Positions 52,380-58,578 of a DNA stretch of 64,000 nucleotides are shown one piece after another. This DNA is from Verrucomicrobiales bacterium. Its GTDB lineage: Bacteria > Verrucomicrobiota > Verrucomicrobiia > Verrucomicrobiales > DEV007. Under the pieces are notes generated by a model, which saw nothing but the letters and a program-made list of their open reading frames with translations, made no database searches and was not told the DNA's origin. The stretch spans positions 124,001 to 188,000 of the forward strand of contig PAAG01000045.1 of NCBI GenBank assembly GCA_002698785.1. Direction: 5' to 3'. Position numbers and translations under genes: made by a program. Every line of letters begins with the position of its first letter. Position 1 is the stretch's first letter.

Positions 52380-52844
52380 GTGGAAGAGAGAGACGAAGAG
52401 AAAATCGAGAGTGTCCGGGTAGATCTGTGGACGTATTCGGTGCGCTTATTCAAGACTCGAAGTCAGGCCTCAGCCGCCTGCCGAAAGGCGCATTTGCTTG
52501 TGAATGATCAGAAGTGCCGACCGTCTCGCCATATTCGAGTGGGAGACACATTAAAAGTGAAGCGTGGTTTTCTGACTCGTACAGTCGAAGTGAAAGAGCT
52601 TTTGGAAAAGCGGGTAGGTGCCAAAGTTGTTGACGACTATCTGATAGACCAGACCCCGGCTGAAGAATACGAGCGTGCTGCAGAGATTGCTAAGGCATCG
52701 CGAGAAGTCGCACCAAAGCGTGACGCCGGGGCTGGGCGCCCAACAAAACGAGATCGACGAAATCTTGATGAATTGATGGAAGAAGCTGCTGCAGAGAAAG
52801 ACCACTTCGATCAATTCGTGAAAACAATCAGGAAACGCCGGTGA
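52380..52844 (+). CDS. S4-domain RNA-binding protein (Hsp15-like)
   Basis: 154 residues from a GTG start. An S4 domain covers about 10-75 (VRVDLWTYSVRLFKTRSQA, then VNDQKCRPSRHIRVGDTLKV). A basic, disordered-looking tail follows (RPTKRDRRN). The order and size fit Hsp15, which helps release nascent chains from broken 50S subunits. The family is safe, the specific ortholog less so. Confidence 0.82.
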   Translation: MEERDEEKIESVRVDLWTYSVRLFKTRSQASAACRKAHLLVNDQKCRPSRHIRVGDTLKVKRGFLTRTVEVKELLEKRVGAKVVDDYLIDQTPAEEYERAAEIAKASREVAPKRDAGAGRPTKRDRRNLDELMEEAAAEKDHFDQFVKTIRKRR

Positions 52845-52908: not shown

Positions 52909-54624
52909 GTGATTATGGGAACTTTTGGTTGGGCGGGTGAAATTCGCCATATCTATCTATCGGGAGCTGCAAACCAGTTTGTCGTACATGGAAACGTTAA
53001 CGACCGGTTTCTCCTCGCAGATGAAAGCACGGGAGGTTCACGGATTGGAAATCTGACGGATTACTTTCGAGAGGTGCAACTGCAGAAATTCGATCTCATC
53101 TTGAGTTATGAGCTAGGCTCTGGGCTAACAATAGAACGCGGTGAAGAACTCTATCGCCAACTTCGTTTCTCCGATGATTTTCCAAAAGATCCACCTGGTG
53201 CGATTGGTTTTCTCGACAGTTTTCTACGGTTTTGTGTGAACCTGAGAAATTTGAGCCCTGGTGAGGTGGAGGAGAGTCTTGCCGGTCGAAACTTCCATGT
53301 CGCGGTCCTGATCAAAACGGCAGAATTGGTTTTTCCTGTCGCGAAACAGATTAGGGACTACCAACTGAACTCTATGGCATCTGCGGTGAGGGCGTGGTCG
53401 AACGAGACGCACTTCACTGAACAGAATCTGGCGGTGTTTTTGATCTCGGAGAATCTCAATGATTTGAATCACATCCTCGCGCAAAATCAGCGTGCCGCTC
53501 AGATCGAAATCCCTATGCCTGAGTTGGCGGAGCTGACGGCGGCCTTTGCGTATTTTGAAAAGGAGTATCCAGTCGCTCTGAAAAATTTCCAGGGACTGGC
53601 AGGCGAGGTAGCCGGAAGACTTGCCGGTGCGACTATCGGCTCCATTGAAGCATTGTTGAAACGTCGAGAGTATGAATCAGAGCCTCTCTTGGAAAAGGAC
53701 TTTGCCGATCTTAAAAAGTGTCTCGTCGAACAGGACTCGCAGGGGCTGATCGAGTTTCTCGAACCTACCCGGACGCTTGACGATGTGTACGGCCATGACG
53801 CCATCAAAACCTGGATGCGACAGGATATTGAATTATGGAAACAAGGAGACCTTGCTGCAATGCCGATGGGTTATTTGTTGTGTGGTCCTGTGGGGACGGG
53901 AAAGACCTACATAGTGGAGTGCCTTGCTGGAGAGGCTGGTGTCCCCGTGGTAAAGATGAAAAACTTTCGAGATCGGTGGGTAGGAAGCACAGAGGGGAAC
54001 CTGGAAAAGATCTTCGGATTACTTCATGCTCTCGGTCGATGCATCGTGTTCATCGACGAAGCCGATCAGGCTCTGGGAAGTCGTGACTCTGGATCCGGCG
54101 ACTCAGGTGTGTCTGGACGGGTGTATTCCATGATGGCGAAGGAAATGAGCGATAGCCAAAATCGCGGTCGCATTCTCTGGATACTTGCTTCCAGTCGCCC
54201 CGACTTGATTGAAGTCGATCTGAAACGTCCCGGCAGAGTGGATGTGAAGATACCGCTGTTTCCTGCTCATGAGGCAGGAGAAGCGTATCATTTGATTCGC
54301 GCTCTGGGGAAAAAACACGATCTGGATTTACCGAAGGAGTGCCCGGAAGACCTCCTCCCTCTCGTTCCTGGATTGGTCACCGCTGGTGCGGCCGAGTCAA
54401 TCGCGGTTAAGGTGTATCGGCAGGTCAAGACAGACTCAATCACGGCAGAGGAGGCACTTCGTGATTGCTTGGATGAGTACCAGAATCCCATCCCACCTGA
54501 TGTGATGGATTTTCAAATCACGATTGCTGTTCGAGAAGCGAGTGACCTGGATTTTGTTCCCGAAGAATTTCGAAAGTATCAGGAAGCGAAACCAGGCCCT
54601 ACCGGCGGTGTTTCATTCGACTGA
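52909..54624 (+). CDS. AAA+ ATPase with an unusual N-terminal domain
   Basis: 571 residues from GTG at 52909 (ATG at 52915 is equally possible). The AAA module covers about 290-500: Walker A GPVGTGKT (326-333), Walker B CIVFIDEAD (Asp383, Glu384), sensor-1 region ASSRPDLI, and an RPGR arginine-finger segment. The N-terminal ~270 residues begin with IYLSGAANQFVVHGNVNDRF and carry few motifs I know; overall layout is reminiscent of Ycf46-like proteins. The substrate is unknown. Its stop overlaps the next start (TGATG), so the two are translationally coupled. Confidence 0.75.
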   Translation: MIMGTFGWAGEIRHIYLSGAANQFVVHGNVNDRFLLADESTGGSRIGNLTDYFREVQLQKFDLILSYELGSGLTIERGEELYRQLRFSDDFPKDPPGAIGFLDSFLRFCVNLRNLSPGEVEESLAGRNFHVAVLIKTAELVFPVAKQIRDYQLNSMASAVRAWSNETHFTEQNLAVFLISENLNDLNHILAQNQRAAQIEIPMPELAELTAAFAYFEKEYPVALKNFQGLAGEVAGRLAGATIGSIEALLKRREYESEPLLEKDFADLKKCLVEQDSQGLIEFLEPTRTLDDVYGHDAIKTWMRQDIELWKQGDLAAMPMGYLLCGPVGTGKTYIVECLAGEAGVPVVKMKNFRDRWVGSTEGNLEKIFGLLHALGRCIVFIDEADQALGSRDSGSGDSGVSGRVYSMMAKEMSDSQNRGRILWILASSRPDLIEVDLKRPGRVDVKIPLFPAHEAGEAYHLIRALGKKHDLDLPKECPEDLLPLVPGLVTAGAAESIAVKVYRQVKTDSITAEEALRDCLDEYQNPIPPDVMDFQITIAVREASDLDFVPEEFRKYQEAKPGPTGGVSFD

Positions 54625-55256
54625 TGAGTCAATCCCTTGCCATTCTCCTATGTTCTATTGTTTTGGTAAGCGCCTCGGCGCAGGAGATGGGAGTGGTTTT
54701 TATTCCAGAAGAGGTTGGAGATTCAGATTTCGGTGCTTTGCAGGAGCAGTCACCGTTCACTCGGGCGATTAACTTGAGCGATTCATTGATCCTGACTGGG
54801 GTTGCCTTGGTAGATGACGAGCGAGTGGCGACGCTCCTCAATAAAGAGACCAAGGAGACGTTTGTTGTTTCGAGTCAACTGAACTCGCAGGGATGGAAAA
54901 TGGTCGAGTTAAAGGAAGATTCCGATCTCGAAAAAGTAGCGGCGAAGGTCTCCGTGAACGGCGGCGAAGTAGTGACCGTACGATACGCGGAATGGCAATT
55001 GAAACCGGGTGAATCAAAACCGGGTGCCGGGTCTGGAGGGGGAGATCGGGAGTCTCGTGAGCGGGATGGTGGGCGCAAAAGAGGTTTTGGACCTCCGCCT
55101 GAATTCCGGGAGAAAATGGAGAAGCTGAGTGAAGACCAGCGCCAGAAACTGTTCAAGAAGATGGGGGAGCTTCGAGAGAAGAACCCGGAAATGCCTCGCG
55201 AAGAGCGAGGACAAATCATGATGAAGATGATGGACAAAATGTTGAAAAGCAAATGA
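54624..55256 (+). CDS. Small secreted protein, coupled to the AAA+ gene
   Basis: 210 residues. A signal peptide (about 1-19, ending SASAQ) exports it. The central part is beta-rich; a Gly/Ser/Arg linker (about 128-150) is followed by a helical, Met/Lys/Glu-rich end (REKMEKLSEDQRQKLFKKM) that resembles the helical repeats of CpxP/Spy-type periplasmic proteins. No family is assigned. Its start overlaps the AAA+ stop, although one product is cytoplasmic and the other exported. Confidence 0.55.
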   Translation: MSQSLAILLCSIVLVSASAQEMGVVFIPEEVGDSDFGALQEQSPFTRAINLSDSLILTGVALVDDERVATLLNKETKETFVVSSQLNSQGWKMVELKEDSDLEKVAAKVSVNGGEVVTVRYAEWQLKPGESKPGAGSGGGDRESRERDGGRKRGFGPPPEFREKMEKLSEDQRQKLFKKMGELREKNPEMPREERGQIMMKMMDKMLKSK

Positions 55257-55310: not shown

Positions 55311-55784
55311 TTACTTCTTCTTAGCCACTTTTTTGCGCGCAGTCTTCTTCTTAGTAGCAGCCTTTTTCTTAGGAGCTGCTTTCTTTTTTACTGCTGCTTT
55401 CTTTTTTGCGGCGGCCTTTTTCTTAGGAGCCGCCTTCTTCTTCACCGCGGCTTTCTTTTTAGCAGCGGCCTTTTTCTTAGGAGCCGCCTTCTTCTTCACC
55501 GCGGCTTTCTTCTTGGCAGCGGCCTTTTTCTTAGGGGCAGCCTTCTTCTTCACCGCGGCTTTCTTTTTAACTGCAGCCTTTTTCTTAGGGGCAGCCTTTT
55601 TCTTCACAGCGGCTTTCTTTTTAACTGCAGCCTTTTTCTTGGGAGCAGCCTTTTTCTTCACAGCGGCCTTTTTCTTAGGAGCTGCCTTCTTCTTCACAGC
55701 AGCCTTTTTCTTCGGCGCTGCCTTCTTCTTTGCAGCGACCTTTTTCTTCGGTGCTGCCTTTTTAGACGCAGTTTTCTTTTTCAT
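55311..55784 (-). CDS. Histone H1-like lysine/alanine-repeat DNA-binding protein
   Basis: 157 residues made almost entirely of hexapeptide repeats of the form KKKAAP, KKKAAV or KKKAAA, about two dozen copies, between a short start and a basic end. The composition matches bacterial H1-like proteins (as in chlamydiae and AlgP of Pseudomonas), which bind and compact DNA without sequence preference. The gene is a tandem array of ~18-base units and is likely to vary in length between strains. Its ATG overlaps the dehydrogenase stop (ATGA), so the two are probably co-translated. The antisense frame is a meaningless poly-Phe ORF. Confidence 0.8.
   Translation of the reverse strand: MKKKTASKKAAPKKKVAAKKKAAPKKKAAVKKKAAPKKKAAVKKKAAPKKKAAVKKKAAVKKKAAPKKKAAVKKKAAVKKKAAPKKKAAAKKKAAVKKKAAPKKKAAAKKKAAVKKKAAPKKKAAAKKKAAVKKKAAPKKKAATKKKTARKKVAKKK
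55311..55784. repeat. Tandem ~18-base coding repeats of the H1-like gene
   Basis: The whole gene is built from degenerate 18-base units that encode KKKAA plus Pro, Val or Ala. Synonymous third positions differ between copies, which argues for an old array under protein-level selection rather than a recent duplication. Copy number could change by slippage in steps of six residues. Confidence 0.75.
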
Positions 55785-56734
55785 TTCTTGCGGCGAGTTG
55801 GTTTCTTCTTCGTGCCGGATCTTCCGGGGAAGGTCAGCTCGGCAACTCCTGATTTATCAAGGTCACCGATTCCCAACTGTACCATGCGATCGTATTGAGC
55901 TTTGGTCGCATCGTTCAGTGGTAGGGAAAGTTTCTTTGCCTTGGCGAGACCTCCGGCAATTCCGGAATCCTTGGCGGCGTGTTCGGCGGAAAACCAACAT
56001 TCGTGATCGCGTGCGATCATATCTTCCGCATCGGTTTCCAGGACCCGTGAGTTGGCACCGGTCTGGGAAAAGACTTCGCATATCATTTCCAAGTCATGTC
56101 CAAGTGCTTTTGCTAGTCCAAGCCCTTCAGCAAGCCCTGCGGTGTTAATGTTCATGACCATGTTTACGAGAGCTTTCACTTCGGCAGCTTTTCCGACTTT
56201 ACCAATGTGCCGGAGATTCACACTGATATCTTGAAGCAGCTTCTCGTTCGCTTTGAAAACATCATCGTCTGCGCCCACCATCAGGTAGAGCTGTCCCGTT
56301 CGGGCGTGGCTGATGCTACTCGCCATACATGCTTCGATGCAACTGGCCTTTCTTCTCTTCGCAGACGTCGCGACCTCTTTTTGAATTCCGGGGGACAGTG
56401 TCGCGCAGTTGATAAATGTCTTTCCGGCAGGTGAAGTGAAAAGACTGTCTCTCTTTCCGAAGAAGATTTTCTTCATCGCAGCATCGTTCGTTACCACCGT
56501 AAAAATGATGTCTGCATTTGCCGTCACATCTGCCAGCTTCGAGTATGCAGTTGCACCTATCTCTTCTGCAAGTTCATTGGCTGCGGTACGATTGACATCG
56601 TATACAGCTGTCACGTTGTAGTTTAGATCTTTCAGATGACGAGCCATGTTAGCACCCATTTTGCCAACTCCTACGAAACCGATTTTCTTTCTGCTCGGTC
56701 GGGCTGCTTTCTTCTTCGCGGCTTTTTTGGTCAT
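55781..56734 (-). CDS. Beta-hydroxyacid dehydrogenase (HIBADH family) with histone-like basic tails
   Basis: 317 residues. The Rossmann motif is GFVGVGKMG (Gly22, Gly24, Gly27). The catalytic lysine motif is kept (Lys187, Asn191 in GKVGKAAEVKALVN). The substrate-binding SGG of most members (residues ~138-140) is replaced by ASS. Both ends are basic: MTKKAAKKKAARPSRKK at the N-terminus and GRSGTKKKPTRRKK at the C-terminus, the same style as the H1-like protein encoded next. The tails could tether the enzyme to DNA. Substrate and cofactor preference are not known. It is divergent from dgkA. Confidence 0.75.
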   Translation of the reverse strand: MTKKAAKKKAARPSRKKIGFVGVGKMGANMARHLKDLNYNVTAVYDVNRTAANELAEEIGATAYSKLADVTANADIIFTVVTNDAAMKKIFFGKRDSLFTSPAGKTFINCATLSPGIQKEVATSAKRRKASCIEACMASSISHARTGQLYLMVGADDDVFKANEKLLQDISVNLRHIGKVGKAAEVKALVNMVMNINTAGLAEGLGLAKALGHDLEMICEVFSQTGANSRVLETDAEDMIARDHECWFSAEHAAKDSGIAGGLAKAKKLSLPLNDATKAQYDRMVQLGIGDLDKSGVAELTFPGRSGTKKKPTRRKK

Positions 56735-56803: not shown

Positions 56804-57196
56804 ATGAAGGAACCGCAAGAACGTTTTCGAACTTTGGAAAAGTTTAAAGCGGCATTTTCTGGCATTGTTAGCGCAATAAGGAGCGAGGTGAATCTTCGTA
56901 TTCAATTGGTAGTTTTCGGAATTGTTGTTGCGCTAGGTTTGTGGTTCCAGCTGGATGCAATGGAGTGGGTGGCGGTACTCTTGGTGTCAGGTTTGGTTCT
57001 CTCCGCAGAGATCATGAATACGTCGATCGAGAAGCTGTGTGATGTGCTTCATCCGAATCGTGACCCGGGGATTGGAAAAGTGAAAGACTTGAGTGCTGGT
57101 GCCGTGTTGGTCGCCGCGCTTGCAGCGGCAGCAGTCGGCGCTATCGTCTTTATTCCTAAAGTATGGCAATTGATCAAAACGTTTTGGGAGAAGTAG
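56804..57196 (+). CDS. dgkA: Diacylglycerol/undecaprenol kinase (DgkA family)
   Basis: 130 residues with three transmembrane helices. The family active-site segment AEIMNTSIEKLCD is present, followed by DPGIGKVKDLSAGAV. It phosphorylates diacylglycerol or undecaprenol in the inner membrane, recycling lipid carriers. The next gene starts within its last 34 bases. Confidence 0.9.
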   Translation: MKEPQERFRTLEKFKAAFSGIVSAIRSEVNLRIQLVVFGIVVALGLWFQLDAMEWVAVLLVSGLVLSAEIMNTSIEKLCDVLHPNRDPGIGKVKDLSAGAVLVAALAAAAVGAIVFIPKVWQLIKTFWEK

Positions 57197-58578
57197 CCGC
57201 ACCTGCTGATTGGGTGGAGGAGCTCTCCGAGGTAGTCGGTTCGGAAAAGTTATCCACGGCGGATGATGTCCGTAGGGAATTTGGTGTAGATCGGTGGCAT
57301 GCTGCTGCCATGCCTGATGTTGTGATCCACGCGCTATGTCGGGAAGATGTGCAGGCTGTTCTGAAGTTTTCCAATGAGAGAGGTATTCCGGTAACGACAC
57401 GTGGTGCTGGGGTAGGTTACGTTGGTGGATGCGTTCCGGTAAAAGGTGGAATCTTGCTCTCCGTTCGAAAGATGGATCAAATCCTGGAGGTTAACCCGGA
57501 GGATGGAGTCGCGGTTGTCGAACCGGGAGTCATTTTAAATGATCTACAGGAAGCTGCTCGCGAGTTGGGGTGGTATTACCCACCTGATCCAGCAAGTCTG
57601 AAAGAGTGTTCCGTCGGTGGAACAATTGCGACAAATGCAGGTGGCCCTCGATGTGTAAAATACGGCGTCACAAGACCATATGTTTTGGGTTTAGAAGTGG
57701 TTCTTCCAAACGGTGAGATTCTTGAGACTGGAGGTCGTTGTCATAAGAACAAAACCGGTCTCGATTTGATAGGAATGTTTGTTGGGTCGGAGGGGCTTTT
57801 GGGTGTGGTAACAAAAGCAACGTTGCGTTTGATTCCTCATCCGGAAGCGAGGGCGATGCTGACTGCGACCTTTCCAGCATTCGAAGTTGCAGCGGAAGCG
57901 GTTCAAAAGATTCTCGATTCAGGCTGGCAGCCCTCTGGCCTGGAAATCACCGATGGATTCACCTTGCAGGCTGCTCGGGATTACCTTGGCCCTGAGATGC
58001 TTCCAGATGGGAATGCTCATTTGATCGTTGAGTTAGATGGGCGAAAAGATTCGGTGCTTCGAGATCTCTCATCGTTGAAAGAGTTGGTCGAAGGTTCGGG
58101 AGCAATCTCCGTAGAAGAAGCGAGGGACAAAGATGCCTGCGAAGCGATTTGGAAATTGAGGAGAGAATTTTCTTATTCGTTGCGAGCTACTGGTCTGATC
58201 AAACTGAACGAAGACATTGTCGTGCCCCGATCCAAACTGGTCGAGCTGGTTCGTTTTGCCCGGAAGCTTCAGGACGACACTGGCATTCCAGTTGCGTGCT
58301 TTGGGCATGCAGGGGACGGGAACATTCACACCAATCTCATGGTCAAAGATTATGATTCCGATCCGGTCGCAAGAGAGAAGGCCGACGATGCGCTGGATAT
58401 TTTGTTTCGATGGATCATCGAAAACAATGGTCAAATTACGGGCGAACACGGAGTAGGTCTTGCCAAAAAGCGCTGGTTCAAGGATGCTGTCTCCCCGGTT
58501 TCTGTTGAGATTCACAAAAAACTGAAAGCGACCTTGGATCCCAACGGGATTCTTAACCCCGGAAAGTTTATCGAATAA
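57163..58578 (+). CDS. glcD: Glycolate oxidase subunit GlcD-like FAD-linked oxidase
   Basis: 471 residues. The FAD-binding type 4 domain has PVTTRGAGVGYVGGCVPV and DPASLKECSVGGTIATNAGGPR. The C-terminal oxidase domain has CFGHAGDGNIHTN and ITGEHGVGLAKK, typical of GlcD and D-lactate dehydrogenases. It oxidises glycolate or D-lactate. No glcE or glcF partner is adjacent, so the physiological electron acceptor is unclear. The start lies inside the dgkA gene. Confidence 0.88.
   Translation: MAIDQNVLGEVAAPADWVEELSEVVGSEKLSTADDVRREFGVDRWHAAAMPDVVIHALCREDVQAVLKFSNERGIPVTTRGAGVGYVGGCVPVKGGILLSVRKMDQILEVNPEDGVAVVEPGVILNDLQEAARELGWYYPPDPASLKECSVGGTIATNAGGPRCVKYGVTRPYVLGLEVVLPNGEILETGGRCHKNKTGLDLIGMFVGSEGLLGVVTKATLRLIPHPEARAMLTATFPAFEVAAEAVQKILDSGWQPSGLEITDGFTLQAARDYLGPEMLPDGNAHLIVELDGRKDSVLRDLSSLKELVEGSGAISVEEARDKDACEAIWKLRREFSYSLRATGLIKLNEDIVVPRSKLVELVRFARKLQDDTGIPVACFGHAGDGNIHTNLMVKDYDSDPVAREKADDALDILFRWIIENNGQITGEHGVGLAKKRWFKDAVSPVSVEIHKKLKATLDPNGILNPGKFIE

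Follow-up and report, generated by a model that had tools for sequence, protein, structure and literature searches.

The window analysed here, a stretch of 64,000 nucleotides from a Verrucomicrobiales bacterium, encodes on its minus strand a beta-hydroxyacid dehydrogenase (beta-HAD) with basic tails at both ends, whose stop codon overlaps the start of a second frame coding for a histone H1-like protein. The tails and the overlap had been described in an initial annotation of this DNA, and we confirmed them with exact coordinates. The features of this gene pair are the following:

56734-55781, minus strand: beta-HAD of 317 residues, core at about residues 16-305 (Pfam, AlphaFold and fold search)
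56684..56734, minus strand: basic N-terminal tail, residues 1-17, net charge +9, sequence MTKKAAKKKAARPSRKK
56315..56335, minus strand: EACMASS, motif of the substrate loop at residues 134-140, placed by alignment with 5je8, 3w6u and 1yb4
56162..56176, minus strand: KALVN, Lys187 to Asn191, aligning with the conserved Lys/Asn stretch of HIBADH
55784..55819, minus strand: basic C-terminal tail, residues 306-317, net charge +7, sequence SGTKKKPTRRKK
55784-55311, minus strand: H1-like Lys/Ala-rich protein of 157 residues, net charge +80, start overlapping the enzyme stop (ATGA)
55353..55730, minus strand: array of 21 six-residue units KKKAA[PVAT] within the H1-like protein

Two Pfam domains follow each other in the enzyme, PF03446 (NAD_binding_2, E 2.1e-30) and PF14833 (NAD_binding_11, E 1.1e-17). 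The AlphaFold model (mean pLDDT 89.3, pTM 0.82) predicts a confident beta-HAD fold with a disordered N-terminus, residues 1-9 having a pLDDT below 50. A Foldseek search with this model returned many beta-HADs; the top matches superposed with an rmsd of 13-14 Å and a TM of about 0.6, owing to a different domain arrangement, and E. coli YihU superposed at 2.6 Å with a TM of 0.79-0.85. The enzyme shares its Pfam domains, fold and aligned Lys and Asn with the known members of the beta-HAD family (HIBADH, tartronate semialdehyde reductase, YihU, L-serine 3-dehydrogenase), but differs from them by an E-x-x-MASS sequence in place of the DAPVSGG-type motif, by the basic tails found in two of its clades and by scores below the NCBIfam cutoffs. 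None of the NCBIfam equivalog cutoffs was reached (best score 128 bits for a cutoff of 340.75), and NCBIfam assigned the enzyme to no named member (HIBADH, TSR, threonate dehydrogenase or YihU). In the alignment with 5je8, 3w6u and 1yb4, EACMASS occupies the position of the DAPVSGG-type motif, which is present neither in the window enzyme nor in its subfamily, where E-x-x-MASS is conserved instead: E134, M137, A138, S139 and S140 are invariant among 40 sequences and positions 135 and 136 vary in relatives. K187 and N191 are invariant as well (18 of 18 and 40 of 40 sequences), the lysine aligning with that of 5je8, and their stretch aligns with the HIBADH residues that we take to be catalytic. 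D46, located after the second strand, is invariant in both alignments of orthologs (18 and 40 sequences); an aspartate at this place is presumably a sign of NAD preference, and it suggests NAD as the cofactor. Since the active-site Lys and Asn are invariant while the usual substrate motif is replaced by E-x-x-MASS, these enzymes form a distinct, probably active subfamily. Because of the divergence at the substrate motif, we gave the enzyme no substrate name.

The enzyme had initially been likened to the eukaryotic protein GLYR1/NPAC/NDF, in which a domain of the same beta-HAD fold belongs to a chromatin-binding protein. The likeness stands as a concept but not as a special kinship in sequence or fold. 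N-PAC was the tenth-listed PDB sequence match of the enzyme (83 bits, compared to 130 for the best) and first appeared at rank 17 in the fold search; homology to GLYR1/NPAC in particular was rejected, as other beta-HADs score better by sequence and rank higher by fold. In addition, GLYR1/NPAC combines a PWWP domain with a dehydrogenase-like domain reported to have no detectable activity (PMC12112590), whereas the window enzyme, as judged from its sequence, keeps the active-site Lys and Asn and has no Pfam match to a PWWP domain.

Orthologs of the enzyme, at 59-87% identity, occur throughout the order. A search at E 1e-50 gave matches in 75 of 387 genomes of the phylum, all from the same order or class among the matches listed, and the enzyme was absent from the listed genomes of one genus (g4). 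The subfamily is narrow, met here only in class Verrucomicrobiia, and usually untailed. The ortholog set comprised 169 loci, from which 10 were dropped as incomplete or unmatched at the end motif (L052, L120, L130, L147, L175, L176, L190, L199, L201 and L206; L120 is N-tailed and cut at a contig end); with 25 identical cores counted once, 134 distinct orthologs remained. Sequences with a net charge of +5 or more at either end were classed as tailed. This was the case for 38 of the 134, with 34 tailed at both ends, three at the C-terminus only and one at the N-terminus only (L196, a label that is unsure because its C-terminus lies at a contig end). C-tail length in the tailed rows ranged from 4 to 107 residues, with a median of 18.5, and pN/pS among 13 relatives was 0.25 in the tails for 0.12 in the core. 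The other 96 orthologs are untailed, examples being those of Roseibacillus persicicus and Brevifollis, and untailed relatives were part of what the initial annotation had named as counting against its reading; the pattern of tail gains and loss is nevertheless informative. In a tree of 46 orthologs, basic tails were found at both ends in 27 of the 28 rows of one clade. A quick tree of the 134 cores required three tail changes, and three are forced by its starred branches. The large tailed group (35 rows, support 94) contains one untailed member, L033 from genome G020, which represents a tail loss. The second tailed group is a separate starred clade of 4 rows, from all four genomes of one genus (g42); six genomes from other genera of its family are untailed but distant from it in the gene tree. 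Tails were thus gained twice and lost once in two branches of Verrucomicrobiota. They are not a habit of the beta-HADs of the window genome, whose three paralogs (L003, L004 and L005) have no comparable tails, L004 ending in a few lysines. The same genome holds on another contig a second, untailed relative, 66% identical to the enzyme (G000:C20:9913-10800; L002, L053), which may be foreign or a contaminant, given an estimated contamination of 4.97%.

The separate H1-like protein is composed of 79 Lys, 52 Ala, 11 Val and 9 Pro among its 157 residues, with neither Asp nor Glu. It had been described as made only of KKKAA repeats, which holds for its 21 consecutive units but not for 18 N-terminal and 13 C-terminal residues that deviate from the repeat. 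It resembles chlamydial HC2 and other bacterial H1-like proteins in composition, but at E 0.001 it was matched neither by Pfam, with its HC2 profile (PF07382), nor by NCBIfam. Comparison of the 21 units shows invariant first and second bases in the five KKKAA codons and variable third bases, giving 18 distinct DNA units, with a between-unit divergence of pS 0.85 and pN 0.077. This combination of fixed first and second bases with variable third bases indicates that selection acts at the protein level, rather than chance or DNA slippage. Exact KKKAA-coding sites number 34 in the whole genome (8 for a reversed control pattern), 22 of them in the enzyme and H1-like genes; some of the other 12 lie in other proteins with shorter basic stretches.

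The pairing of the two genes, presented initially as a notable trait, is rare: an H1-like ORF lies downstream of the enzyme in 5 of the 38 tailed rows (L001, L009, L011, L014 and L016). The C-tail measures 12-13 residues in all five; the two frames overlap by ATGA in L001 and are separated by a non-repeat spacer of about 57-60 nt in the other four. An origin of the ORF from a long tail by frameshift was considered but gained no support. No H1-like ORF was found downstream in nine close relatives with C-tails of 19 (shortened by masked bases) to 74 residues. A strict swap of a long tail for a separate ORF was nonetheless rejected: 14 rows with C-tails of at most 18 residues also have no ORF, so the two are not simply exchanged, although among these 14 rows L022 and L196 have too little downstream sequence to tell (the scan covered less than 350 nt in L016, L022 and L196). 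An assembly error was rejected too, since the H1-like pair recurs in four other genomes and both tails are present in 27 of 28 orthologs of the surrounding clade.

The body of the enzyme differs between the two classes as well. Without the tails, the core net charge averages +2.9 in tailed orthologs (n = 38, from -5 to +10) compared to -12.2 in untailed ones (n = 96, from -25 to +6), means that ignore relatedness, and 16 of the 96 untailed cores have a charge of -5 or higher. The gain consists mostly of lysine (23.7 Lys per core in tailed and 13.1 in untailed orthologs). With the tails included the ranges no longer overlap (+12 to +61 for tailed, -25 to +6 for untailed), a gap that is partly a matter of definition since tailed rows were selected by tail charge. 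In the tail-loss row L033 the core stands at -15 and has 17.5 charges less than its clade, the pattern of this drop mirroring that of the gain (r 0.52); L036, L038 and L039, untailed and from the same family, range from -17 to -21. In the second tailed clade the cores carry +3 to +9 (mean 6.2), compared to -9 to -14 in untailed members of its family; the untailed rows closest to it in the gene tree, however, are nearly neutral (mean -2.3 for 13 rows, 0.3 for the nine nearest). A shift does exist in this clade, though a smaller one, and some of it may predate the tails. A paired test over the three independent tail changes gave p 0.25 and cannot reach significance at that number of changes.

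The two tailed clades gained positive charge in part at shared sites, and this gain is reverted in L033. In 14 alignment columns the charge of each tailed clade is higher by more than 0.4 than that of all untailed rows; these include 11 residues of the window enzyme, which lie within the following span:

55931..56539, minus strand: span with the core positions more basic in both tailed clades, residues 66, 89, 94, 95, 127-129, 209, 265, 267 and 268

When each clade was compared with its own baseline, the per-site shifts of the two clades were correlated (136 variable columns, r 0.43, a value reached by 0 of 20000 permutations). As controls, nine hand-picked untailed clades gave r from -0.37 to 0.12, and random four-row untailed sets gave a maximum of 0.33. 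Restricting the analysis to 34 columns that tolerate Lys or Arg left r at 0.40, with 162 of 20000 permutations as high; the twelve top sites of the two clades have four residues in common (89, 94, 95 and 209, p 0.012). These results also bear on a neutral growth of Lys/Ala repeats devoid of function. The wide spread of C-tail lengths resembles that of slippage-prone repeats, but the synonymous variation between units whose protein repeat is kept, the two origins of the tails, the core shift partly at shared sites and its reversal upon tail loss already disfavour such an explanation, which we regard as highly improbable. Selection for polyanion binding most simply explains why tails and a more basic body appeared twice and disappeared once. 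To this extent the initial interpretation is supported: tails kept in one clade and regained in a second, together with a more basic body, are signs of an enzyme adapted to a polyanion.

The genes around the enzyme were then compared between genomes. Those of the window that enter the comparison or the discussion of the target are:

56804..57196, plus strand: diacylglycerol kinase (DAGK_prokar), divergent neighbour, found in 15 same-clade genomes (cluster of 16 loci, 2 from one genome)
57163..58578, plus strand: FAD oxidase of GlcD-like type, scoring under the glcD cutoff, the following divergent gene, present in 21 same-clade genomes (cluster of 22 loci, 2 from one genome)
54624..55256, plus strand: convergent ORF with a start that we read as signal-peptide-like, no Pfam match, downstream of the enzyme in 14 same-clade genomes
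52380-52844: S4-domain protein, a relative of the ribosome-associated Hsp15

Many untailed orthologs are preceded by a gene of about 280 codons that encodes a metallo-beta-lactamase domain and an N-terminus which appears helix-turn-helix-like in our reading of the sequence. This hydrolase gene was directly upstream in 46 of 82 untailed loci but in 3 of 19 tailed ones (loci with at least 900 nt upstream, duplicates retained), and these three all belong to the second tailed clade. Hydrolase and enzyme are fused in L043:2062-3786 and L049:1920-3641, and the upstream gene is unfused in L041, L042, L045, L046 and L048. In the large tailed clade the neighbours of the enzyme are genes for diacylglycerol kinase and a GlcD-like protein, and no hydrolase gene adjoins it. 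Among 56 related genomes, with enzyme presence called at E < 1e-100, 44 have both genes and eight have neither; the enzyme occurs alone in G003 and G023 and the hydrolase alone in G002 and G009, all four genomes being 53-75% complete. Six of the eight double absences come from one genus, and in one of the eight, G049, a fragment of the enzyme lies at the edge of a contig, so that the co-occurrence is suggestive rather than independent evidence. The enzyme and the metallo-beta-lactamase-fold hydrolase likely form a two-gene pathway. The hydrolase also served as the one control protein for a proteome-wide charge drift, which was rejected: its charge is -12.5 in hosts of a tailed enzyme (n = 17) compared to -13.9 in the others (n = 49), with 10.3 and 10.4 Lys respectively.

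This neighbourhood bears on two further explanations. The initial annotation had raised the idea of a redox sensor, a nucleoid factor in which binding of NAD(H) or of a substrate alters DNA compaction. In its favour, enzyme and H1-like protein are co-encoded in five rows and the core itself is more basic; however, the active site is conserved just as in the untailed orthologs that lie beside or co-occur with the hydrolase gene, and nothing there points to regulation. We consider this very unlikely. The target of the tails might also be RNA or the ribosome, the tails keeping the enzyme with transcripts or translation or merely aiding solubility and assembly. Lys-rich stretches bind RNA too (PMC6821194), and the Hsp15-related protein is encoded in the window, but among the gene clusters that recur within about 1.5 kb of the enzyme in the tailed clade, none to which a name could be given is RNA-related, and we judge an RNA target distinctly unlikely.

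The H1-like protein, used as a query at E 1, retrieved three other Lys/Ala-rich proteins from its own genome. One appears to be a gyrase/topoisomerase-A-like C-terminus (our own reading, Pfam giving only a weak HC2 match), one is a DksA-type zinc-finger protein and the third is a small protein of no named family. HC2 scores were 28.0 for the DksA-like tail and 23.7 for the topoisomerase-like tail, below the cutoff of 40. DksA-type proteins with Lys/Ala/Pro-rich N-terminal tails were found in the window genome (L087:589-1476, G000:C56) and in L265-L282. With a Lys-rich N-terminus defined as at least six Lys among residues 1-30, 17 of 18 sampled DksA-like proteins have one, with or without enzyme tails in the same genome (the protein of G038 was unreadable, and some, for example that of G036, are mixed and less plainly basic). 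Lys-rich N-termini of DksA-like proteins are old. The enzyme tails were therefore rejected as a mere sign of a genome newly gaining Lys-rich tails, as these N-termini are Lys-rich also where the dehydrogenase is untailed.

H1-like tails are already known on bacterial proteins, and the tailed dehydrogenase is an added variant; in the open-access literature on H1-like or Lys-rich bacterial tails, which leaves subscription papers and preprints mostly outside, no such dehydrogenase was reported among the matches listed. The closest likeness in possible mode is to Pseudomonas PhaF and AlgP, which also carry a disordered Lys/Ala(/Pro) repeat tail on another domain (PMC9239181). In PhaF and AlgP the tail is joined to a granule protein or to a small helical domain, whereas here it would be an apparently active dehydrogenase whose body is basic too. 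According to the same source, DNA is bound in vitro by a fragment of the AlgP tail and by KPAA peptides, PhaF is thought to bind it, and AlgP, with its KPAA tail, localises to polyphosphate granules and is required to space them evenly (PMC9239181). Polyphosphate is also bound by Lys-rich regions of E. coli YihI and Rnr (PMC12345225). Owing to AlgP and to these E. coli regions, polyphosphate granules are a real rival to DNA as the polyanion, the tails docking the enzyme there as in the H1-like AlgP. Against it, similar tails in the window genome sit on topoisomerase-like and DksA-like proteins, whose families act at DNA or at RNA polymerase, and we hold docking on polyphosphate to be unlikely. 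We favour DNA for this same reason, for the in vitro binding of the AlgP tail fragment and KPAA peptides (PMC9239181) and for the enrichment of prokaryotic Lys-rich low-complexity regions in DNA-binding proteins (PMC6821194).

Considering the genes, the tails, the clade pattern, the core charge difference and the kept active-site residues, the best reading is an adaptation to a polyanion, most likely nucleoid DNA, in the manner of the KPAA tails of AlgP and PhaF. The enzyme would be held on the polyanion by charge, through disordered Lys/Ala tails at one terminus or both and through added surface lysines, and an enzyme oligomer could bind in a multivalent fashion. DNA would be the target of the tails, on charge evidence that fits RNA or polyphosphate equally. 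The enzyme would work in one pathway with the hydrolase, and the benefit might be that a reactive aldehyde is handled, or reducing power supplied, beside DNA. The window organism and four relatives additionally encode a separate H1-like protein directly downstream. We give an even chance to the whole of this proposal, namely a probably active, probably NAD-using beta-HAD, likely in one pathway with the hydrolase, that was twice refitted for a polyanion, most likely nucleoid DNA. The stronger statement, that an active dehydrogenase works on the bacterial chromosome after two independent conversions by tails and by lysines that in part occupy shared surface sites, with an H1-like protein of its own in some species, is more tentative, and we place it below even chances. 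If true, it would make the enzyme a convergent bacterial counterpart, with catalysis retained, of the chromatin-bound metabolic enzymes of eukaryotes; to our knowledge, such enzymes have been discussed chiefly for eukaryotes. Tailed and untailed orthologs, with two gains, one loss and named surface positions, constitute a natural experiment on nucleoid attachment by tail swaps, and the small conserved set of partners offers a route to the purpose of the attachment.

Further H1-like stretches were observed in related genomes. In G038, a PEP-utilising enzyme, which we read as of the pyruvate phosphate dikinase type, continues in frame into an H1-like Lys-rich C-terminus of more than 100 residues (L216:606-2498) and would be a further metabolic enzyme with an H1-like tail. 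A penicillinase-repressor-type regulator of G041 continues in frame into an H1-like stretch starting with MAKKKTT (L212:1504-2211). Near-perfect KKAAPA repeat proteins are encoded at L215:3-350 in G017 and at L214:1498-1782 in G020, the latter being the genome whose dehydrogenase lost its tails.
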